Positions 9,307 through 17,633 of a DNA stretch of 64,000 bases are shown one piece after another. A program made the translations under genes and the position numbers. The DNA comes from Marinobacter sp. LQ44 (GTDB lineage: Bacteria; Pseudomonadota; Gammaproteobacteria; Pseudomonadales; Oleiphilaceae): positions 186,001 to 250,000 of the forward strand of contig NZ_CP014754.1 in assembly GCF_001447155.2 (NCBI RefSeq), in the 5' to 3' direction. The notes beneath the pieces are model-generated. The model was not told the origin of the DNA, did not search any database, and worked only from the letters and a program-made list of their open reading frames with translations. Every line of letters begins with the position of its first letter. Position 1 is the first letter of the stretch.

Positions 9307-9397
9307 GGTGGGCTGGCAGAGTGGCTGAATGCAGCGGTCTTGAAAACCGCCGACGGTTAATAGCCGTCCCGGGGTTCGAATCCCTGGCCCACCGCCA
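9307..9397 (+). tRNA. serT: tRNA-Ser (UGA anticodon)
   Basis: 91 nt including an encoded CCA. The acceptor stem GGTGGGC / GCCCACC, a long variable arm typical of tRNA-Ser, the T-loop GGTTCGAATCC, and the anticodon loop CTTGAAA reading UGA are all visible. The 3' end is the attachment site of the element at 9384-17633, whose insertion leaves the tRNA intact. Confidence 0.95.
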
Positions 9398-9399
9398 TT
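9384..9399. repeat. attL core (3' end of tRNA-Ser)
   Basis: CTGGCCCACCGCCATT, identical to 17618-17633 in direct orientation. After one mismatch both copies continue TTCT. Confidence 0.85.
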
Positions 9400-9448
9400 T
9401 TTCTATATAAATCAAGTGGTTACCTCCCAGAAAATATTTTACCCTACC

Positions 9449-9459
9449 TCCTACCTATC
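9449..9459 (+). repeat. TCCTACCTATC repeat near attL
   Basis: Identical 11-mer at 17477-17487 near attR, and a related inverted copy (TTTGGATAGGTAG, 12667-12679) upstream of terS. Candidate integrase arm-type site or regulator site. Confidence 0.4.
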
Positions 9460-9479
9460 AACGCAGAAATGGTGAATAT

Positions 9480-9507
9480 TTGCTCATTTCGGCTACAATT
9501 TGAGCAA
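9480..9507. promoter_or_regulatory. Inverted repeat over a -10 element upstream of the 65-aa gene
   Basis: TTGCTCA (9480-9486) and TGAGCAA (9501-9507) are perfect 7-bp inverted arms around TACAAT (9494-9499), a candidate -10 box. This is the arrangement expected for a repressor-controlled promoter. Confidence 0.45.
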
Positions 9508-9526
9508 CCGAGGTAGTGAGGTGTAT

Positions 9527-9724
9527 ATGAGCCGTCTTGAAGAGTTGCAGGCAAAGGCCGATAAGTTGGAGCGGGATCTTTTTACTGCGAGGGGTGAAGC
9601 GGATGCGTGGAACTCTGGCAAGTACAAGGGCCACTCAAACGCCACGCTTTCAAAACGGCTTGTCGAAAGTATGGAAAAGCAACTAAGCGAAACTCTCGAG
9701 GAAATCCGCCAGCTCGAGCAATGA
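9527..9724 (+). CDS. Small coiled-coil protein in the satellite (65 aa)
   Basis: Almost entirely helical and charged, with heptad-like Leu spacing (LEELQAKADKLERDLF; ESMEKQLSETLEEIRQLEQ). The ATG at 9527 has GAGG 6-7 nt upstream; GTG or TTG starts a few codons earlier are possible. It is the only plus-strand gene of the element, next to attL, and has its own promoter with an inverted repeat over the -10 box. The family is not recognised. Its position suggests an accessory or regulatory gene. Confidence 0.6.
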   Translation: MSRLEELQAKADKLERDLFTARGEADAWNSGKYKGHSNATLSKRLVESMEKQLSETLEEIRQLEQ

Positions 9725-9802
9725 GCTGATCATCCCATCATCGGATGAATAGGGCGGCCATCCACCGGCAACTCGATAGCTCGTCGAATTATGCCACCGG
9801 CT

Positions 9803-10087
9803 TCAGGCCATAGACTCACACCACCGGATAAACCCCTCCGATAGCCAATGCGGATCAAGGCCACACATCCCGCAACACCGGCGCATCATTGGGCCAACCT
9901 TGCATACATCATCAAACGCCCGTTCCATCGTGACGCTGTTGGGGCCTGCTCCACGGTGAGCCTTCTGGAGCCAATACGCTTGCGCATCCTCAATCAGAGC
10001 GGCCACCACAGCGCCCCACAACTTGCGCTCGGGCTGGTTATCCAGCGCCCCCGAAAGGGCGCCATCTAACTCATGCGTCAAAGGCAC
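9803..10087 (-). CDS. Hypothetical satellite protein with Cys-rich C-terminus (94 aa)
   Basis: The N-terminal half is acidic and helical (ALDNQPERKLWGAVVAALIEDAQAYW). The C-terminal part contains three clustered cysteines (RRCCGMCGLDPHWLSEGFIRWC), which could bind metal or form a small helical DNA-binding unit. It overlaps the upstream 226-aa gene by 17 bp, supporting translation as part of the terS-terL run. The family is not recognised. Confidence 0.6.
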   Translation of the reverse strand: MPLTHELDGALSGALDNQPERKLWGAVVAALIEDAQAYWLQKAHRGAGPNSVTMERAFDDVCKVGPMMRRCCGMCGLDPHWLSEGFIRWCESMA

Positions 10088-10751
10088 GGTCGAAGCCTTG
10101 CGCGGCCTCGGCGTGACGCTGTTCAGCTTCGCGGATCTCTTTTAGCCTCGCTGGGTCAAAGCCCTTATCGACGGCGCTATTGACGGATCGCAAAGCGGCA
10201 ACGGCTTCATCATAGCTTTCGTTGATTGCCTGGCGTTCCTCCACCAGATCCCCGGCTTTCTGTTTCTCCAGGGCTTCGGCTTGGCGAGCGGCCATGTCTT
10301 TCGGAATACCGGACAGCATAGACGGTGCCTCTGCGACCGCTGCAATCAATTCACCGTCGCCATCTTTTAGCGCCTGATTGAACGCTGCAAACCGTTCCTT
10401 TTCCGGAAGTAGGCGCATGGCGTGCCGAATCTCGGCGGCATATTCCGCACGGCAGACAAGCCCGGACTTTTCTTTAATCCGGTTGTTCAGCTCACCCAGT
10501 CGAGACAGAAGGGCATTCGATAGCCGATCATGGGCGCGGGTTGATTCGTTCTTCAGCCGGTCAGCAGAGCGGGCAATTCTCGCGGTGTGTGCCTCCTCCG
10601 TTACCATCGGGTCACGGTTAGCGGACAGGGTTTCCAGAGACTCCACGCCCCGGTGAATCCGCCGGATCTCATCCAGAAACGGGCTGGGCTTGTCGTTGGC
10701 TCGTTCGGTCAGGCGTTTAACGTGCTGTTCAATGATTTTGCTGTAGCGCAT
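10071..10751 (-). CDS. Helical hypothetical protein downstream of terminase (226 aa)
   Basis: Predicted mostly alpha-helical and highly charged, with no Cys-rich or catalytic motif (RIARSADRLKNES; EERQAINESYDEAVAALR). It starts 12 bp after terL on the same strand. In phages this slot can hold portal, scaffold or packaging accessory proteins, but the protein is too small for a portal. Any role in packaging or capsid redirection is inference from position. Confidence 0.65.
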   Translation of the reverse strand: MRYSKIIEQHVKRLTERANDKPSPFLDEIRRIHRGVESLETLSANRDPMVTEEAHTARIARSADRLKNESTRAHDRLSNALLSRLGELNNRIKEKSGLVCRAEYAAEIRHAMRLLPEKERFAAFNQALKDGDGELIAAVAEAPSMLSGIPKDMAARQAEALEKQKAGDLVEERQAINESYDEAVAALRSVNSAVDKGFDPARLKEIREAEQRHAEAAQGFDRAFDA

Positions 10752-10763
10752 GGGGCTATCTCC

Positions 10764-12203
10764 TCAATGGCTGAAATGCACTGTGATTTGCGGGTATTCG
10801 TGTTCGGTTAGTGCGTAGCGGCATGAATCGGCGGCATGGTCAGCAGCAGAGCTGTCTACGTCCTCCGGATTTCTGGGGTCTCGCGGCAAGCTCGGGACGG
10901 TCTGCCACCAGATGGAACAATTGCGGGACACATACAGGCCAGGCATATCTGGCTTTCCAGCGTCCGCCAGTAGTCGGCGCATCTTCTGCCAGCCTGCAAG
11001 GCGACTGCCTTTCCCGGCACGGCGGAAATTTACCCCGGTTCTGCGAAATTCCTCTGCAATGCTTCCGCTCTCTGAGCCCGTACGGTTGAAAATGGCGTCA
11101 TCCGCCACGCCGTCAGCAGGGACGCCCCACCGATGGCACATTGCCTTAATGCGGTCGGCCTGATCTGGGACGGTGAGCCCCATACCGGCATTCAAGTCGT
11201 CTGGGTGTGTGGTGGTTTCCTCGTCCACCAGGATGATCGAGCCACGCGGGTAGAAATATCCGTCCGGGCCTTCACCGCCAGGACTTTTAACGCACAGATA
11301 CGTGACAGACGGCGCGGCTACCCCGAAATCGTGGGACAGGAAGACGCTCCACTTGTCGCGGATCTGGCCAGCGGTGCCCCGGTAGCCTTTCGCATTGCTC
11401 GGGATCTCTGATTGATCTCTGCCGGGGAGGTAGGCCCACGGCTCCACCATGACGCGGTGTTCTTCAATGACGTTGGAGAAGTACGCACCACGCAGGATTG
11501 ACCAGTCACCATCAAGCCATGCCTTGCCCAACTCGGGGTCAGTGGCACATGACGCCATCAGGTTCTTGGCGTAGCGGTCGCGGTCGATGAACTCATTGTC
11601 CCGGTAGGTGCTTGCAATGGTCACGAAGTCAAAGCCGGTGGCCTCGTCGGTGTACGGCTTCCAGGGCGTTTTGAGGGCGTGTCTGCGCACTAGCCACGAA
11701 TGGCCCGTGCCGCCGGGGTTGGCCAGCAGGATAAAGCGGACAGGGACGCCAGCAGGGGCACGCAGGGAGGAGCGGAGACGGTCAACCAGGATGGGACTGT
11801 TGTATTGGCCTGCCTCGTCGACGGCGATATGGGAGAAGGACTTGCCCTGATACTTCTGGAAGTCTGCTTCCCGCTCCATCTGGTCAAGCTGGATGGTCGC
11901 CCCGTTGGGGAACTTGAAGCGGTGCTTCTGGGCATCAAACCGCAAGCCATCGCCGTACACCCCAGTGAAGAAAGAGCGGAACTCGGCCTCCAGATCCTGC
12001 AAGCCAGGAAACGACTTGCGCACCACCAGACAGCGGGCCTGCTCTCCATGCTGTTCACAGTGACGCAGAAAGATTGCCGCCAGCAGGTGAGACTTACCGC
12101 CACCACGGCCACCACCTAAGAACAGATCAAAGGATTCCGGCACGCCCATCGCCTGGGATTGCCACTGACTGAGCTGGTCAGGTCGCTGGTTACTCGCTGC
12201 CAT
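10764..12203 (-). CDS. Phage terminase large subunit (TerL)
   Basis: 479 aa; the ATPase-nuclease motor that packages DNA into proheads. The N-terminal ATPase has a P-loop at about 30-38 (GGGRGGGKS), Walker B with catalytic Glu (HIAVDEAG, Asp129/Glu130) and a coupling motif in LLANPGGTG. The C-terminal RNase H-like nuclease has its acidic residues in SHDFGVAAP (Asp292), GVADDAIF (Asp368/369) and the terminal SSAADHAADSCRYAL. All parts look intact. It overlaps terS by 14 bp. A complete TerL is notable because many satellites carry only TerS and use the helper's TerL. Confidence 0.93.
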   Translation of the reverse strand: MAASNQRPDQLSQWQSQAMGVPESFDLFLGGGRGGGKSHLLAAIFLRHCEQHGEQARCLVVRKSFPGLQDLEAEFRSFFTGVYGDGLRFDAQKHRFKFPNGATIQLDQMEREADFQKYQGKSFSHIAVDEAGQYNSPILVDRLRSSLRAPAGVPVRFILLANPGGTGHSWLVRRHALKTPWKPYTDEATGFDFVTIASTYRDNEFIDRDRYAKNLMASCATDPELGKAWLDGDWSILRGAYFSNVIEEHRVMVEPWAYLPGRDQSEIPSNAKGYRGTAGQIRDKWSVFLSHDFGVAAPSVTYLCVKSPGGEGPDGYFYPRGSIILVDEETTTHPDDLNAGMGLTVPDQADRIKAMCHRWGVPADGVADDAIFNRTGSESGSIAEEFRRTGVNFRRAGKGSRLAGWQKMRRLLADAGKPDMPGLYVSRNCSIWWQTVPSLPRDPRNPEDVDSSAADHAADSCRYALTEHEYPQITVHFSH

Positions 12204-12597
12204 TCGTCAGCTTCTCCTGTTCGACTCTGACAGCCTTCATGTACTCGGCTGGATCAAGGGCGGCGGGTAGGTTGAATACCACACTGACACGCTCTGACGA
12301 GCCCCTGGGCTGCTTCTCGCTCATGCCGTGCCGGACTGCCAGCAGGGTCTGGTTTGCCTTTGTGTCACCCTCCATGGCGCGGGCATAAAGTGCGGACAGC
12401 AGTTGATCCCGTTCAACGGCGAGTGCGTTCTCCCAGATCTCTTTAGAAGGCTTGTGTTCGGTGATGACCTTGCGTAACTGGTCAAGCGGCATCCCGAGTG
12501 CCGTTGCGGCGGCGGATTCGGAGAGCAGGCCATTAGCAGCCATTGCCTCCAGGTGGTTCTTTGCTCCAGCCGGGAGCTTTTCAAACGGTCTGGCCAT
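12190..12597 (-). CDS. Terminase small subunit-like DNA-packaging protein
   Basis: 135 aa. The N-terminal helix-turn-helix-like region (LLSESAAATALGMPLDQLRKVI) is followed by an oligomerisation-type helical core (ALAVERDQLLSALYARAMEGDTKANQTLLAVRHG) and a C-terminal tail likely to contact TerL. It is directly upstream of and overlapping terL. TerS recognises the pac or cos site, so in a satellite it would direct packaging to the element's own DNA. An ATAAGT-N4-ACTTAT inverted repeat sits 13 bp before the ATG. Confidence 0.8.
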   Translation of the reverse strand: MARPFEKLPAGAKNHLEAMAANGLLSESAAATALGMPLDQLRKVITEHKPSKEIWENALAVERDQLLSALYARAMEGDTKANQTLLAVRHGMSEKQPRGSSERVSVVFNLPAALDPAEYMKAVRVEQEKLTNGSE

Positions 12598-12609
12598 GGT
12601 TACGCCTCG

Positions 12610-12625
12610 ATAAGTGGCTACTTAT
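12610..12625. promoter_or_regulatory. Inverted repeat ATAAGT-N4-ACTTAT before terS
   Basis: Perfect 6-bp arms with spacer GGCT, ending 13 bp before the terS start. The string GCTACTTATTG (12617-12627) also occurs at 16070-16080 downstream of int, suggesting one regulator at both places. Confidence 0.4.
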
Positions 12626-12972
12626 TGACCGTTATTGTCTCACAAACTGGCATGAGTTGGTAGGTATTTGGATAGGTAGAAAGAATGGTAACCGACCGAT
12701 AACTGAAAATACTAAGGGGTTGGCGGTGTAGTTAACCGACAAGTCCAGAGCTGGATGGATTTTGCTTGCAGGCTTTGCAGAATTTCGGCCCTACAATCCA
12801 CTGAAACATCATTCCGGGGTTTTTGAGGTTCAAAACTCCAGACATAGAAAACGACGAACCTATAAAAAAAGAAAGAAAGTACACTCTAAAATGCCTATAG
12901 GGATTAAACCCCAGAAACCCCAAAATATAGGGCGTTCTGTTTACCCTTCTCGATTTCTCCAATCTGCTACCC

Positions 12973-13004
12973 CAAAAACCACAAAACCCGACACAAGGCC
13001 GGGT
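12973..13004 (-). terminator. Intrinsic terminator of the satellite replication gene
   Basis: On the minus strand ACCCGG-CCTTGTG-TCGGGT (last pair G-U) is followed by TTTGTGGTTTTTGG. It starts about 18 bp after the stop of the PrimPol/DUF3987 gene and separates that block from terS. Confidence 0.65.
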
Positions 13005-13021
13005 CTGCGGGTTGGTTATGG

Positions 13022-15463
13022 TTAAAGGATTGCGGGGTTAACCTGATAGGCTTTGCTTGGCCTTCCTGGCCCTTGCGGCTTGTTTTCAACCGGCCTGATA
13101 TATCCGCGTTCCGAAAGGATCTGTAACGGCTGCTCCAGTGCGTCGGCCCTATCAAAGCGGCTTTTGTGATTCTGGAAGGCATCGCGGGCGGTAAACTCCT
13201 GCAAGCCGTGGCGCTTGATCCACTTGATAAGAACCTTTGCGGCTTCCGTGTCCGGGTCTGCCGCCATCAGGCCATATACTGCAAGGGCATGGCTTGCGAG
13301 GGCTTCACCAGTGCGAACCGCTGCGCCCATATCATCGGCACTGACGGCGCTGGCCTTGTAGTCCTGACCATGCCGGGCGATATGGAACAGGGCGGCAATC
13401 CGTGCCACTGCTCCGGGCAACTTGCCTGCCCAGTCTCGGCAATGCTCAAACAAGCCGTTTTCGCCCATCTCCGCCTCTACGTCCTGCCAGCATTGTTGCC
13501 AGATCTCGCGAGCCTCGTCGGACAGCTTGATAATGTCCCGTTCCTCCTTGCCCTCACCAGCCGAAAGCAAGGCTTTCACCGTTTCGTAAAAGCTCTGTTC
13601 CGTAAACGCGTCCATACGCTCCCCCTGTCCGCTTCGTGTGCCCAGGTTGGACGGGGGGAGGGCATACAAGAACCGGCCCAGCAGGCCACGGCCTTTGAAC
13701 CCCGGCTTTGTGCTTAGGCTATGCAGTACGTCAGGCTGTACCGCCAGCGCAATCGTTAACCGGGGATTGTCCAGGATGACGGCGGGCTTACTGCCTCTGT
13801 CGATCCTCACAGGGTCGCCAGCATGGCCGTTAAGGTACAGGTCGATATTCGGCACACCTTGGTTATACCGGCCCGCCATCGTCTCAAAAATGCCACCCTC
13901 GGCACTGAGTAAGCCCAGCTCCCCGTTGTTGTGTTCCATCATCGTGCCAAGGTGTTCGGTGGTCACGTCTGACGTATACACGCGAGGCAGCCGCGGCACC
14001 TCCGGTAATTCGGCCTCCATTTCTATTACCTTGTCCATCAGGCTGGCGGCTTTGTGCTCGTCCTTTTCCTTGGCGGCCATCTGGCGCTGTTGCTTGATCC
14101 GCTCCTTTTGCATGGACAGGCGGCTTTCTGCCTTTTTGATCTCCGGCTCCAGGCGTTTGCGATTCTCGCTTTCCCATTGCAGCAATGGTTTCACGGCCCG
14201 CTTGAACTCGGCGGATTTCCGAAGGGCGGGCGGCAAAGCCGTGGCGATCATCAAGTTAATGGGCTCAAAATAACCCGGCTTGATATTCACGTCTGCAAGC
14301 CGTTGGCCTGCCACTGCCAGGACACCTAACGCCAGCATGGCGGGCAGTTCCACCGGGGTTTCAGTCTCACGGCTCGCGGCTTGAGCGTAATTCCTGAGAA
14401 TCGGCGGCCACTCGTTAACGGGCAAGGGCACGGGGGCTGCCGTGTCGAGATCCACCAGCGGTGGCCAGTCGATTGCCGGGGCGGCCTTCTCCTGTTGCTC
14501 CACGATGTAATGAAGGCTCCCGCCGGTTGCGGGCTTGCCGGTGTAATGGCCAAACGACTGATAGGCGGCGCGTGTCTTTTCCTTGTCGTACTTGTCAGAA
14601 CGGCGGCTCCATAGGTCGAATACCGCAAACCCGTGCGGGCCTAGTTCGTACTCGATAGCGGCCCCGACTTTCTGCCAGGTGTCATAGTCCACGCCTTCGC
14701 CATCGTTGCGGATCTGAGTCACAAGGGACAGAACCCGCATGCTGTCCATCCTGTCGCCCTGTGTGGCGCTCTCTGGCGTGCTGTCCGGCGCTTTCTTGTC
14801 AGGGAAATACTCGCGCCCCAGTTCGGTTAAATCCCTGTCCTCGATAGCGAACGGGCTTTCCTCCAGGTGGTGCCCGGTGAAGGTTAGAAAGCGCTTGTCC
14901 TCGTAGAACTCCACTCCTTTGGCTTTACTGTTTCCGGTGTGCCCGCCAAAGGTGCCACGGGCAATAAATCGAAACCCAGAAAGGCCGGGGCTGAACTCCG
15001 TGTAGGTATCCGCTCTCTGGAGAATTTCGACAACGTGTGGCGCTACTTCGCCAGCCTCGTTTATGCAATCGTCGGTATCACCACCGGCAAGCCCGTATTC
15101 CCGATACAGGATGATGCCTACGCCTTGAAGCATGGGTTTTGATTCGGCGTAGTGAATAGCGCGTTCAGCGGTCGTACAGAACCCTTCCTGACTCCATCGT
15201 TCAGAACCGTCAACGGGTGAAACGGGCACCTTGTCCGGCTTCTTGCCGGGTTTCTGTTTCAACTTCCAGGCGCACCAGATGGGAAGCTCTGAGAGCTCCG
15301 GCGGGATTTCCTCCAGGCCGGGTATATGTCTGGCATAAGGGCGGCTGTTCGGTTTTTGAACAGTCATGCTATACTCGGTTTGAGCTTGCCCGCTCTGATT
15401 AGCGCCTTCGCCCCCGTTCAGTTGCCCGCTGTCGGGGGTTGTTCGTTTCTGTAGCTCCACCAT
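13022..15463 (-). CDS. Satellite replication protein: PrimPol-like + PriCT-2 + DUF3987
   Basis: About 813 aa. The N-terminal ~210 residues resemble archaeo-eukaryotic primase/PrimPol domains of phage and plasmid replication proteins: IWCAWKLKQKPGKKPDKVP, an acidic metal-binding motif (GGDTDDC) and VEFYEDKRFLTFTGHHL. The usual SPSGTG-H motif is altered to SPGLSGFRF. A PriCT-2 primase C-terminal domain follows (about 245-320, VDYDTWQKVGAAIEYEL). The remainder is DUF3987, a domain common in mobile-element replication proteins, with a coiled coil (KAESRLSMQKERIKQQR). Start ATG at 15463 overlaps the upstream stop (TAATG) and has a G-rich binding site. Probably primes and starts replication of the element. 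Confidence 0.8.
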   Translation of the reverse strand: MVELQKRTTPDSGQLNGGEGANQSGQAQTEYSMTVQKPNSRPYARHIPGLEEIPPELSELPIWCAWKLKQKPGKKPDKVPVSPVDGSERWSQEGFCTTAERAIHYAESKPMLQGVGIILYREYGLAGGDTDDCINEAGEVAPHVVEILQRADTYTEFSPGLSGFRFIARGTFGGHTGNSKAKGVEFYEDKRFLTFTGHHLEESPFAIEDRDLTELGREYFPDKKAPDSTPESATQGDRMDSMRVLSLVTQIRNDGEGVDYDTWQKVGAAIEYELGPHGFAVFDLWSRRSDKYDKEKTRAAYQSFGHYTGKPATGGSLHYIVEQQEKAAPAIDWPPLVDLDTAAPVPLPVNEWPPILRNYAQAASRETETPVELPAMLALGVLAVAGQRLADVNIKPGYFEPINLMIATALPPALRKSAEFKRAVKPLLQWESENRKRLEPEIKKAESRLSMQKERIKQQRQMAAKEKDEHKAASLMDKVIEMEAELPEVPRLPRVYTSDVTTEHLGTMMEHNNGELGLLSAEGGIFETMAGRYNQGVPNIDLYLNGHAGDPVRIDRGSKPAVILDNPRLTIALAVQPDVLHSLSTKPGFKGRGLLGRFLYALPPSNLGTRSGQGERMDAFTEQSFYETVKALLSAGEGKEERDIIKLSDEAREIWQQCWQDVEAEMGENGLFEHCRDWAGKLPGAVARIAALFHIARHGQDYKASAVSADDMGAAVRTGEALASHALAVYGLMAADPDTEAAKVLIKWIKRHGLQEFTARDAFQNHKSRFDRADALEQPLQILSERGYIRPVENKPQGPGRPSKAYQVNPAIL

Positions 15464-15663
15464 TACGCGCCCCCCTTCACATACGCCACAAGATCCGCCA
15501 GCTTCACGCACTTGCAGCCGGAAACCTCATGCACTGCCAAGGTGCCGTTACTGATTGCGGTTGTGATCTCATGGACAGGGAGCCCCACCAGCCGTGCAGC
15601 GCGGTGAATGGTAAATAGCTCGTCTTTGGTGCCATGGTTGTAGAAGGTGCCGGGAATAGTCAT
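15463..15663 (-). CDS. Small winged-helix/excisionase-like protein (66 aa)
   Basis: The start overlaps the alpA stop (ATGA) and the stop overlaps the primase start (TAATG), so it is translationally coupled on both sides. The core ELFTIHRAARLVGLPVHEITTAISNG resembles a MerR/Xis-type helix-turn-helix with a following wing (GTLAVHEVSGCKCVKLADLVAYV). It probably binds DNA and may act as excisionase or replication regulator. No close family is recognised. Confidence 0.6.
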   Translation of the reverse strand: MTIPGTFYNHGTKDELFTIHRAARLVGLPVHEITTAISNGTLAVHEVSGCKCVKLADLVAYVKGGA

Positions 15664-15845
15664 GCGGACACCTCCTGCTTTGCTTCCCATGCCTCAATAT
15701 CGGAGAGCCGCCAGCGGGTGCTGTTATTGATCTTGATAGGGGCAGGGAAGTTGCCGGATTGTACCCAGCGCCAAGGGGTGGCGCGGTGGACTGAATAGCG
15801 AGTGGCGAGGTCTTTGTCTGAAAGGTATTGCTTACCATTGGTCAT
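15660..15845 (-). CDS. alpA: AlpA-family transcriptional regulator
   Basis: About 61 aa; helix-turn-helix protein of the AlpA/phage_AlpA family: YLSDKDLATRYSVHRATPWRW, then FPAPIKINNSTRWRLSDIEAWEAK. AlpA-like proteins activate integrase or excision genes and are a marker of P4-like and marine satellites. The ATG at 15845 has GGAG 8 nt upstream. It heads the alpA-HTH-primase operon; the 262 bp upstream carry three GGCCCCGCC repeats. Confidence 0.9.
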   Translation of the reverse strand: MTNGKQYLSDKDLATRYSVHRATPWRWVQSGNFPAPIKINNSTRWRLSDIEAWEAKQEVSA

Positions 15846-15929
15846 GTCGGAATCTCCGGCAACCAATGACGCATAAAAAAATGGCGTGTCACTGGCTGCA
15901 AAATCAAGATTGATTTCCGCATCGCCAGT

Positions 15930-16009
15930 GGCCCCGCCACTTTTACGAGTTACCCAGGCTCTCTGTCGCTGACACCGGCCCCGCCGGACCTCCTACCGTT
16001 GGCCCCGCC
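15930..16009. repeat. Three GGCCCCGCC repeats upstream of alpA
   Basis: GGCCCCGCC at 15930-15938, 15977-15985 and 16001-16009, each the centre of a short inverted repeat (AGTGG-CCCCG-CCACT; CCGG-CCCCG-CCGG; TGG-CCCCG-CCA). They may be iterons of a replication origin or operators controlling alpA. Confidence 0.45.
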
Positions 16010-16056
16010 AGTGGTAGAAAGTGGAGCTTATCTCACTCAAGCTGCAATTCTGTTTA

Positions 16057-16074
16057 GTAGCGAAAAACCGCTAC
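16057..16074. repeat. Inverted repeat GTAGCG-N6-CGCTAC
   Basis: Perfect 6-bp arms with loop AAAAAC, 34 bp past the int stop, directly followed by CTACTTATTG which also occurs before terS. There is no T-tract after the hairpin on the minus strand, so a regulator site is as likely as a terminator. Confidence 0.35.
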
Positions 16075-16107
16075 TTATTGCAATGTAACGCATTGTTATT
16101 GAATGCG

Positions 16108-17406
16108 TCAACCTCCTTTTTGTCCTATCGCCACCACCTTGCCGCCTTCCTCCTTTTTGGCCTTGCCGTGGTAGCAATACTGCTCCCAATCCGCCATCAG
16201 TAACCGGCGCTTGTCGATCAATTCAGACCGGGCATAAGCGGCGCGGGTGGCATCGCTGTTAACGTGTGCAAGGGCAAGTTCTGACACCTCGTCAGCGTAT
16301 GCCGTGTGTTCCCGTGCCCAATCCTTGAAGGTGGAGCGGAAACCGTGAGCCGTAACCGGCTGATCCATACGCTTGAGCAGCGCGGACAGGAAGTTATTAG
16401 ACGGAATATCACCCTTTGGGCCTGGGAATATCAGGTCGTCCGGCTTGCCTTGCTCCATACCCTTGAGCAGATCCATGGCCGCATTAGTGAGCGGGACGCG
16501 GTGTTCCTTGCCTGATTTCATGCGGTCAGCGGGCACCGTCCAAACCTTCCGATTGAGGTCGATTTCCTGCCAGGTTACGCCAGCCTTTTTAATCCGTTTA
16601 TCGCCTATTACCTCATTGGTACGGGCGGCGGTCAGAATAAGGAACTCCAGGGCACGGGCGGCGGTGCCGGTGCGTTTCTTCAATGCCTTCATAAAGTCGG
16701 GCATCTGATCCACGGGTAGCGCGGTGTAATGGCTCTTTTTCTTGATCTTCTCCGGGGAGGGGTAAACCTCGTCTAAGTAGCCTTGCCACTTGGCCGGGTT
16801 CTCATTGGAGCGGTAGCCGTGGACAGCGCACCAGCCTAGTATGTTTTCAATCCGTGCCCGGACACGGTTGGCGGTTTCTGTTTTTTCCTGCCAGATCGGA
16901 TCAAGTACGGCCTTGATATGGGGCAGCGATATTTCCCGCACAGGGATAGTGCCAAGGTGGGGCACGGCGTAGGTATTGAGGCTGTTTTCCCATTGCTGAC
17001 GCTGGCGCGGGTTCTTGAACTCCTGAGCCTTCATTTCTATGTATTCGTCCATGGCATCGGCAAAGGTAACTGTACTCAGTCTGGCGGCCTTGAGGGCTCG
17101 TCTAGCGGCCTGCTTTTCTTCTACCGGGTCGATACCTGCCGTGATCTTGTCCCGTGTCTCTCTGGCCTTCTCACGGGCTTGAGCAAGCGTTACATCAGGA
17201 AAGGCACCTAAGCCGATATTACGGCGCTTGCCTGCAATGCGTGTCCGGTAGATCCAGGACTTTGCACCACTGGGGGTTACTTGCAGCAGCAGGCCAGCCA
17301 CACCGCCAACGGGGTGCAATCCGTTATAGGGTTTCCCGTCCTGGCTGACGGCATGGGTCAGTCGTCTGACTTCCGTGGCGCTCAATTCGCGGGCTTTCTT
17401 TGGCAT
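16108..17406 (-). CDS. int: P4-type tyrosine integrase
   Basis: 432 aa. N-terminal DUF4102 arm-binding domain (PYNGLHPVGGVAGLLLQVTP, RRNIGLGAFPDVTLAQAR), a central SAM-like core-binding domain, and a catalytic domain with Arg262 (TAARTNEV), His354-x-x-Arg357 (HGFRSTF), His381 (LAHVNSD) and nucleophile Tyr391 (RAAYARSEL). All catalytic residues are present, so it should be active. It lies beside attR and reads into the element. This integrase class commonly uses tRNA 3' ends, consistent with the tRNA-Ser insertion. Confidence 0.95.
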   Translation of the reverse strand: MPKKARELSATEVRRLTHAVSQDGKPYNGLHPVGGVAGLLLQVTPSGAKSWIYRTRIAGKRRNIGLGAFPDVTLAQAREKARETRDKITAGIDPVEEKQAARRALKAARLSTVTFADAMDEYIEMKAQEFKNPRQRQQWENSLNTYAVPHLGTIPVREISLPHIKAVLDPIWQEKTETANRVRARIENILGWCAVHGYRSNENPAKWQGYLDEVYPSPEKIKKKSHYTALPVDQMPDFMKALKKRTGTAARALEFLILTAARTNEVIGDKRIKKAGVTWQEIDLNRKVWTVPADRMKSGKEHRVPLTNAAMDLLKGMEQGKPDDLIFPGPKGDIPSNNFLSALLKRMDQPVTAHGFRSTFKDWAREHTAYADEVSELALAHVNSDATRAAYARSELIDKRRLLMADWEQYCYHGKAKKEEGGKVVAIGQKGG

Positions 17407-17476
17407 GGCTCATCGTCTCCAGTGCGGGGGTAGAATCCCGGTTTCACCGCCATATTCAGCGGATCAATACCTGACT

Positions 17477-17491
17477 TCCTACCTATCCAAA
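17477..17491 (+). repeat. TCCTACCTATCCAAA site upstream of int
   Basis: Shares 11 bp with 9449-9459 near attL and 13 bp (CTACCTATCCAAA), inverted, with 12667-12679 upstream of terS. It lies about 73 bp before the int start. Candidate integrase arm-type site or shared operator. Confidence 0.4.
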
Positions 17492-17591
17492 ATAACATCA
17501 TTGGAGACTAAAACATGCGACAACATGTTACAAGGGGGAGGGGAGTTTATTTTAAGATCAGCGAGTTACGATAAAAAAGGTCAATTAAAAC

Positions 17592-17609
17592 AGGTGCTTA
17601 TAGGTGCTT
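17592..17609 (+). repeat. Tandem AGGTGCTT repeats beside attR
   Basis: AGGTGCTT at 17592-17599 and 17602-17609, spaced one helical turn apart and ending 8 bp before attR. Such phased repeats are typical of integrase-arm or excisionase sites. Confidence 0.4.
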
Positions 17610-17617
17610 TGTAAGGT

Positions 17618-17633
17618 CTGGCCCACCGCCATT
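17618..17633. repeat. attR core
   Basis: CTGGCCCACCGCCATT, direct repeat of 9384-9399, marking the right end of the element. Confidence 0.85.

Follow-up and report, generated by a model that had tools for sequence, protein, structure and literature searches.

An 8,234-bp element integrated in the chromosome of Marinobacter sp. LQ44 is almost certainly a phage satellite, and it appears to belong to a family of satellites that carry their own DNA-packaging motor and no recognizable portal. The element lies in a stretch of 64,000 nucleotides (contig NZ_CP014754.1, positions 186,001 to 250,000), part of a 4.4-Mb one-contig genome, that was analyzed as a whole and is called the window herein; coordinates are window positions unless a locus is named. 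Both the small and large terminase subunits (TerS and TerL) are encoded, and beside them lies a gene for a 226-amino acid (aa) protein in the place where some relatives carry genes for a scaffold and a major capsid protein (MCP). We favor, with a probability of about 0.6, the reading that this is an intact mobile satellite family with its own terminase and no portal, that the portal is provided by a helper phage, and that the 226-aa protein acts on the shell. Packaging by the element’s own motor, considered separately, is probable. Helper dependence itself is what we infer because portal and tail genes, and in the window also shell genes, are lacking.

Satellites with both TerS and TerL are already known in the form of capsid-forming phage-inducible chromosomal islands (cf-PICIs). 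As judged from sequence, what seems new is an own packaging motor without a recognizable portal, combined with a shell slot that is filled by a helical protein family.

A Recurring Element with Defined Ends

The element is delimited by two exact copies of a 16-bp repeat, which form the cores of the attachment (att) sites attL (9384-9399) and attR (17618-17633). The attL copy overlaps the 3′ end of a tRNA-Ser (TGA) gene found by ARAGORN (9307-9397, forward strand), and integration therefore keeps the tRNA whole. In a sister species (genome G065, locus L253), the element’s left flank is matched at 97% identity (in stretches of 706 and 344 bp) and its right flank at 91% (729 bp). The two matches are contiguous, with a 14-nucleotide overlap inside the core, which reveals that an empty site exists. 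Thus, the proposal in the initial annotation of an 8.2-kb element between att repeats in tRNA-Ser is exact to the base, and the empty site that it recommended seeking is present in a close relative. In another sister species (G080), the identical tRNA-Ser site is occupied by other cargo (L254:4590-12736), consisting of a 5.1-kb stretch between two core copies followed by more genes. This stretch, read without a family scan, looks like a carrier of a DNA cytosine methyltransferase gene.

Ten complete relatives share the gene plan of the window’s element. Nine of these are bounded by att repeats, and the tenth, the IMG/VR contig L002, has a 120-nucleotide end overlap with one mismatch, indicative of a circle or a tandem array of 8,517 bp. 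Including the window, the att-bounded elements number ten and span 7.6-13.7 kb. Repeats of 14-51 nucleotides flank L129 (8,780 bp), L131 (10,211 bp), L132 (10,429 bp), L083 (9,776 bp), L136 (7,555 bp), L214 (10,107 bp), and L140 (13,671 bp), whereas L272 (10,422 bp, tRNA-Ser) and L273 (8,872 bp, tRNA-Leu) lie between repeats of 16 and 22 nucleotides. The att-bounded relatives with a window-type TerL (47-79% TerL identity) occupy tRNA-Ser, tRNA-Val, or tRNA-Arg genes. Partial loci are L133, L215, L216, L217, L130 (from genome G083), and L137. Repeat fetches of the same places were excluded before counting (e.g., L001, L109-L111, L127, L128, L134, L135, L082, and L110), and L138 and L139 were kept out of the satellite counts as phage-like loci with a DUF4055 gene in the portal position. 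A conserved gene set in other genomes, which the initial annotation had left to be looked for, is therefore real, and its description of a minimal satellite gains support from the recurrence of the plan in distinct elements that have att repeats of their own.

Two Modules Alternate in the Shell Slot

The gene order downstream of terL divides the family into two types. In type A elements (L131, L132, L083, and L214), terL is followed by genes for a coiled-coil protein of 176-181 aa and then a protein of 329-344 aa. In L131 and L083, this second product is identified as a major head protein (phrog_247, E = 3e-92 and 6e-95, respectively; Gp13-like in Pfam), and this family is matched by 4 of the 93 open reading frames (ORFs) of eight elements. 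The L083 version of the coiled-coil protein has a match to head scaffolding proteins (phrog_206, E = 1e-6). In type B elements, the place of scaffold and MCP is taken by a member of the family of the window’s 226-aa protein (10071-10751, reverse strand), which has 226-261 aa in the window, L129, L002, and L133, and 226-268 aa over all relatives. A profile built without L136 and L140 recovers a similar protein beside terL in both of them (E = 3e-10 and 1e-7, respectively, among 17,651 ORFs).

Three satellite-like loci of the same genus (L271, L272, and L273) carry a second TerS/TerL pair. Its large subunits are 54-72% identical to that of L273 and are assigned by PHROG as terminase large subunits, yet they give no blastp match to the window’s TerL at 1e-3; the small subunits of L272 and L273 match no PHROG family. 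The 226 family is present in these loci as well (E = 1e-27, 1e-25, and 3e-14 in L271, L272, and L273), and a profile made without L136, L140, and L271-L273 still scores them at 98, 90, and 50 bits.

Exactly one shell module is found in 17 of 18 loci, and none shows both. The 226 family occupies nine (the window, L129, L002, L136, L140, L133, L271, L272, and L273), and scaffold plus capsid occupies eight (L131, L132, L083, L214, L215, L216, L217, and L130), with the absence of the other module being weaker in L216, L217, and L130, which are short contigs. Complete type A elements (n = 4) measure 9.8-10.4 kb and five of the seven complete type B elements measure 7.6-8.9 kb, which hints at a volume limit, although L272 (10.4 kb) and L140 (13.7 kb) break the type B range.

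An AlphaFold2 model of the 226-aa protein is entirely helical (predicted local distance difference test 89.4, predicted template-modeling score 0.73). The model allows a shell role, and fold searches neither favor nor exclude one. Because these searches are uninformative, the proposed role rests on position and exclusivity, to which independence from the terminase type can be added. On these grounds, we consider a capsid-acting function of the 226-aa protein to be plausible, at slightly less than even odds. The copy from L133 has no match among phage records at E ≤ 0.01.

One alternative with some standing, although we judge it unlikely, is that the element is a satellite whose 226-aa protein has no shell role. 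Head-to-tail copies would then enter unchanged full-size helper heads in the manner of phage-inducible chromosomal minimalist islands (PICMIs), with the element’s own TerS and TerL choosing the DNA and the 226-aa protein blocking some other helper function. The integration and replication half of the element is indeed PICMI-like (integrase, AlpA, and DUF3987 primase), the end overlap of L002 fits a tandem array or circle, and nothing in the fold suggests a shell function. However, it would then be surprising that the 226 family replaces scaffold and MCP and is not seen alongside them in the 18 loci, and that it persists with a different terminase pair. The size ranges also hint at a volume limit, apart from the two elements noted above.

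One of these elements has a further peculiarity. An additional gene of L272 (7244-8899), situated between terL and the 226-family gene, specifies a tail protein of 551 aa that resembles a tape measure (phrog_1538, E = 6e-47). This satellite may determine the length of its own tail.

No Recognizable Portal

Family scans of the 93 ORFs of eight elements gave no portal, protease, or HNH family among the best 25 of 26 Pfam families or among the best 25 of 69 PHROG families. For the 20 ORFs of L140, a neck protein but no portal is among the best 25 of 42 families. The ORFs longer than 350 aa in L272 and L273 encode integrase, a replication protein, and TerL, plus the tape-measure-like protein in L272. 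These scans covered 113 of the 116 ORFs listed (93 plus 20), from a greedy ORF choice that omits some small genes; the window’s own small genes were covered by separate Pfam and PHROG scans. In the four complete type A elements, there is no unassigned sense-strand ORF of the usual portal size.

Gene order sets the satellites apart from other loci. Among loci not classed as satellites, 131 of 139 have an ORF of at least 350 aa that starts no more than 1.5 kb after terL, whereas 8 of 10 satellite loci have none, and in L214 and L215 the only such ORF is the capsid gene. This comparison takes in loci with a TerL of the broad group and at least 2.5 kb behind terL, and the set is not made nonredundant. 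The best phage match to the L083 capsid protein (42%) is from AXL_3, whose genes are arranged in the order TerL, portal, head morphogenesis, scaffold, and capsid. From this order, type A satellites look like an AXL_3-like module with the portal and head-morphogenesis genes removed.

The initial annotation stated that the window’s element has no structural genes, and none was recognized in it by Pfam and PHROG scans. It also pointed to capsid or tail genes elsewhere under the element’s control as contrary evidence. The window’s genome (G000) lacks the capsid family of the relatives, and the portal family PF04860 and the capsid family PF05065, two of many such families, were likewise not found there. 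A resident prophage with either of these two families was thus rejected as the helper in G000, where a prophage of another family may be present.

An Intact Terminase and a Conserved Upstream Block

TerL (479 aa; 10764-12203, reverse strand) is recognized by Pfam (E = 2e-10) and PHROG (E = 2e-27). In an alignment of 22 proteins, residues K36, D128, E129, D291, D367, D368, D449, D454, and D458 (numbered without the first Met) are invariant, and we take these to be the ATPase and nuclease motif residues. The ratio of nonsynonymous to synonymous substitution rates (dN/dS) for TerL is 0.05-0.12, and both results bear out the earlier view that the element has its own intact TerL. The TerS gene (135 aa; 12190-12597, reverse strand) overlaps terL by 14 nucleotides. 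Its profile match is weak in the window (E = 0.003), better in L083 (E = 2e-4), and missing in L131, whereas more distant homologues (L136, L137, L140, and L216) can be assigned clearly as terminase small subunits, with phrog_309 matches of E = 1e-10 to 3e-16. The window’s TerS is linked by tblastn to three of these four (L136, L137, and L216).

The 240 nucleotides 5′ of terS (12598-12837, reverse strand) form a conserved noncoding block. Mean pairwise identity over eight loci is 0.42, compared to 0.17 for shuffled sequences (10 sets, maximum 0.20). A second control, against the next upstream stretch, could be made in five loci of sufficient length, with L214 and L215 omitted as near-copies; here the block scores 0.41 and the upstream stretch 0.19. 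The block accompanies terS-terL while the preceding replication gene varies. It has the appearance of a promoter region, with a GGCGG/CCGCC-type inverted repeat in several members, and could function in packaging, in control, or in both.

Two 20-base stretches, one within this block upstream of terS (12608-12627) and the other between alpA and int (16061-16080), have GCTACTTATTG in common and agree at 16 positions. These copies are possibly the sites of one regulator at both places, or they reflect chance.

It could be argued that TerS and TerL poison or titrate helper packaging while the satellite itself uses the helper’s terminase. Interference with the packaging of a helper is known from other satellites, most of which depend on packaging proteins of phages (PMC12409344 and PMC10690885). 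We nevertheless find this explanation improbable, given the invariant ATPase and nuclease residues in 22 proteins, the low dN/dS of TerL, the conserved block that accompanies terS, and the relatives that pair the same terminase with shell genes of their own.

Distribution of the Two Types

Among 124 genomes sampled from the genus, 19 have some TerL match. Fifteen of these were set aside as chance matches (E = 5e-5 to 1e-3, over short stretches), and the four strong cases are G000, G005 (twice), G083, and G122 (twice), with the window-type TerL of G083 residing on a 3,540-base contig. In wider samples, at thresholds of 1e-20 and 1e-80, TerL occurs in 5 of 163 genomes from the family, 2 of 390 from the order, 1 of 369 from the class, and 1 of 398 from the phylum; these counts take in the window’s own genome, and the family count also includes genomes of the same genus. 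A protein search in which the 7,996 best candidates were scored returned 1,025 TerL relatives at E ≤ 1e-50, indicating that this group of TerLs extends beyond the sampled genomes. Names among the best 120 include Marinobacter, Alcanivorax, Kineobactrum, and Nitrosomonas. TerL matches also occur in 16 plasmid records, all below 60% identity, and the phage records hold no near DNA match to the element.

A search with the 226 family gives hits in 5 of the 124 genus genomes (G000, G005 in three places, G010, G011, and G089), a count that includes the G089 hit, which we reject as a chance match to a lipoprotein-like ORF (E = 9e-5). The phrog_247 capsid family is restricted in this sample to G083 and G122, where it is located at type A elements. 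G122 holds two type A elements (L131 and L132) in different tRNA genes, and G005 holds three 226-family loci (L129, L133, and L271); these cases indicate that such elements do not exclude one another within a cell.

The similarity of the two types raises the question of whether type B might parasitize type A in the same cell, using the scaffold and capsid of type A and the portal and tail of a helper. The terminases of the two types are similar (73-79% TerL identity to the window’s), the block upstream of terS is common to both types, and G005 and G122 each hold several such elements. However, G000 and G005, both carriers of type B, have no gene of the type A capsid family, and there are 226-family elements with an unrelated terminase, which makes this arrangement very improbable.

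Lineage and Selection

The suggestion in the initial annotation of a new lineage is supported by the distance to isolated phages. Only 608 of 50,697 phage records match TerL, all below 60% identity, and the best is at 33.5%. In a tree of 24 TerL sequences, 17 form one fully supported group that comprises all 15 satellite sequences plus L138 and L139. Both shell types are present in both halves of this group, and supported branches force at least two and three label changes. The DUF4055 gene of L138 and L139, situated directly after terL, is one that we take to encode a portal. Their placement means that the TerL group is not purely satellite, and the sequences make it possible that the group had a phage source or that some members returned to phage life. 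L138 and L139 could themselves represent phages of this source, or else satellites in which a portal was retained or acquired again.

TerS has a dN/dS of 0.06 and integrase one of 0.08, and the values for the capsid and scaffold proteins are 0.09-0.11. For the 226 family, the value is 0.19 for L002/L133, the sole unsaturated pair, and 0.28 for window/L002; comparisons with the window are rough because dS is saturated (1.3 to 2.3). These substitution patterns indicate that the window’s main genes are under purifying selection. The contrary idea that the genes are decayed leftovers of one prophage fixed in the chromosome is scarcely credible: it draws on the absence of structural genes, the lack of a known helper, and the portal-bearing L138 and L139, which make a phage origin of the module likely, but it conflicts with 10 complete relatives of the same plan at several att sites, a circular or tandem L002, purifying selection, an empty site, and compact overlapping genes.

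A Proposed Packaging Strategy

In the reading that we prefer, a helper phage would induce the satellite, whereupon integrase and the AlpA-like protein would excise it from tRNA-Ser and the primase-helicase would replicate it. TerS would select element DNA, perhaps at the conserved block 5′ of terS, and TerL would pump this DNA into a prohead. Because the satellite makes no recognizable portal, TerL would have to dock on a portal supplied by the helper. Type A relatives would build their own shell from scaffold and MCP, while in type B the 226-aa protein would act on the helper’s shell, most probably in the manner of a scaffold or by setting the size of the shell. The helper would provide portal and tails. 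The window’s copy would likewise be mobile.

A broader and more tentative proposal, to which we give somewhat less than even odds, is that these elements are built of cassettes that can replace one another. One of two terminase pairs, unrelated to each other, would be combined with an own shell or with a new class of helical capsid-acting protein, but never with a portal. The portal would always be stolen, and the satellite TerLs would have evolved for foreign portals.

Several observations weigh against the preferred reading. L138 and L139 are nested in the smaller half of the satellite TerL group (support 100/100 and 99/95), even though their exact place within that half is weak (85/75). A highly divergent portal could escape family scans. 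L137 has TerS and TerL and neither shell module. The fold search with the 226-aa protein returned only generic helical bundles, with no viral fold match at E ≤ 0.001, and the block upstream of terS could be a promoter only. The product of orf94 (94 aa), whose gene is the most distal of the packaging operon, has a dN/dS of 0.41 on saturated dS, a sign of weak constraint, and is missing from several members. Finally, no helper, virion DNA, or transfer has been seen.

Comparison with Known Satellites

Besides both terminase subunits, the cf-PICIs encode a capsid, a head maturation protease, a portal, head-tail connectors, and an HNH endonuclease (PMC10690885 and PMC13230959). The window’s element is similarly an integrated satellite with TerS and TerL, and type A relatives add a major capsid gene. 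However, no portal, protease, or HNH gene is evident in the elements scanned, the window has no capsid gene, and the type A capsid (phrog_247 or PF20036) differs from the PF05065 capsids of cf-PICIs (PMC13230959). Several tested features thus fail, and the element is not a cf-PICI.

PICMIs, which are islands of the Vibrionaceae, are located beside fis and have int, AlpA, and a DUF3987 or DUF5906 primase, with no identifiable packaging genes (PMC10803314). The window’s element is also small and has PF00589, PF12728, and PF13148 (integrase, AlpA-like protein, and DUF3987 primase). Moreover, L002, L083, L131, L132, L136, and L272 have a gene that overlaps int by 4 nucleotides, like the iolg gene of PICMIs. 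In contrast, the window has TerS and TerL, a tRNA-Ser site, and no int-overlapping gene. Given the presence of packaging genes, the element is not a PICMI.

Gram-negative PICIs and Staphylococcus aureus pathogenicity islands share an integrase, AlpA or another regulator, a primase-replication module, and sometimes terS (PMC6092414). Gram-negative PICIs have no terL and are packaged by the TerL of the helper, whereas the window has its own intact TerL.

The core genes of P4 include sid, delta, psu, alpha, and others. None was present among the PHROG families listed, and no P4 models were run. The 226-aa protein showed no link to Sid in the searches made, in which Sid itself was not compared directly. 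The proposed analogy is that, in a small satellite, a single protein acts on the helper shell, as Sid does; however, P4 uses the terminase of its helper P2 (PMC10690885). The Streptomyces satellites MulchRoom and MiniFlayer have their own terminase and shell genes, but they carry portal and adapter genes and no obvious replicase (PMC10690885). Virion-encapsidated integrative mobile elements (VEIMEs) are packaged as repeats in marine virions; the related observation here is the end overlap of L002, whose sample may or may not derive from virions.

A satellite that encodes TerS and TerL yet lacks a portal did not appear in the portions surveyed of the open-access literature, including PMC12409344, PMC10690885, PMC10803314, PMC13230959, PMC11389934, PMC4936722, PMC6092414, and PMC10187409. 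The satellites described there either borrow the helper’s motor or, in the case of cf-PICIs and the Streptomyces satellites, supply a motor along with a portal and a shell. Portal-less elements that have a motor would make the function of a motor on a foreign portal directly testable. The natural swap between scaffold plus capsid and one helical protein is seen in each of the two branches of a single TerL tree, and it occurs with either terminase; it offers an experiment, already set up, on the requirements for phage-head capture. Marinobacter are culturable marine bacteria. With hosts of type A and type B within one genus, they offer a practical system, and a good one for asking how satellites capture virus particles.

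Other Genes and Variable Regions

The genes in the other half of the window’s element encode the integration and replication functions, all on the reverse strand. The tyrosine integrase (432 aa; 16108-17406) is matched by Pfam at E = 1e-26 to 2e-13 and has homologues with 81-82% identity in L129 and L272 (81% in the latter). The AlpA-like helix-turn-helix protein or excisionase (15660-15866) matches HTH_17 (E = 6e-8) and phrog_66 (E = 2e-10), whereas the AlpA model itself scores below its cut-off. Pfam identifies PriCT_2 (E = 1e-11) and DUF3987 (E = 3e-94) in the primase-helicase (829 aa; 13022-15511). The initial annotation had named integrase, AlpA, TerS, and TerL, and these are all corroborated by Pfam or PHROG, with AlpA better termed AlpA-like and TerS weak in the window but clearer in its homologues. 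Its “PrimPol-type” label for the replication protein is not supported, as the Pfam Prim-Pol model has no match. It also described the element as smaller than P4.

The earlier gene list omitted the 226-aa, 94-aa, 75-aa, and 74-aa genes. The 75-aa protein (15463-15690, reverse strand), encoded between alpA and the primase gene, has homologues in L129, L131, L132, L214, and L215. The orf94 gene (9803-10087, reverse strand) occurs with both shell types, with homologues in L129, L131, L132, L133, L214, L215, and L271, the last of which extends to its contig end; none was found in L083, L136, L137, L140, L272, or L273. A protein search with orf94 yielded four proteins, the window’s own counted. The 74-aa protein (9500-9724, forward strand) has no assigned function, no match in Pfam, PHROG, or PADLOC, and a 54% identical homologue in L129. 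Within the two compact blocks alpA-75-primase and terS-terL-226-94, genes overlap or are no more than 12 nucleotides apart, and the open frames of the window’s core genes are free of stops and frameshifts.

Some relatives carry additional genes. Type A elements have accessory genes at their distal ends (L131:6754-7263, L132:12147-12938, and L214:9533-10006) that read as encoding a PDZ protein and lipoprotein-like proteins, and seven proteins from accessory ends gave no PADLOC match to defense genes. The integrase of L131 (15173-16461) is split into two overlapping open frames, which reflects a broken gene or an assembly error. The large element L140 (69-13790; 13.7 kb, tRNA-Arg) adds a helicase, a Holliday-junction resolvase, and the neck protein (phrog_169).

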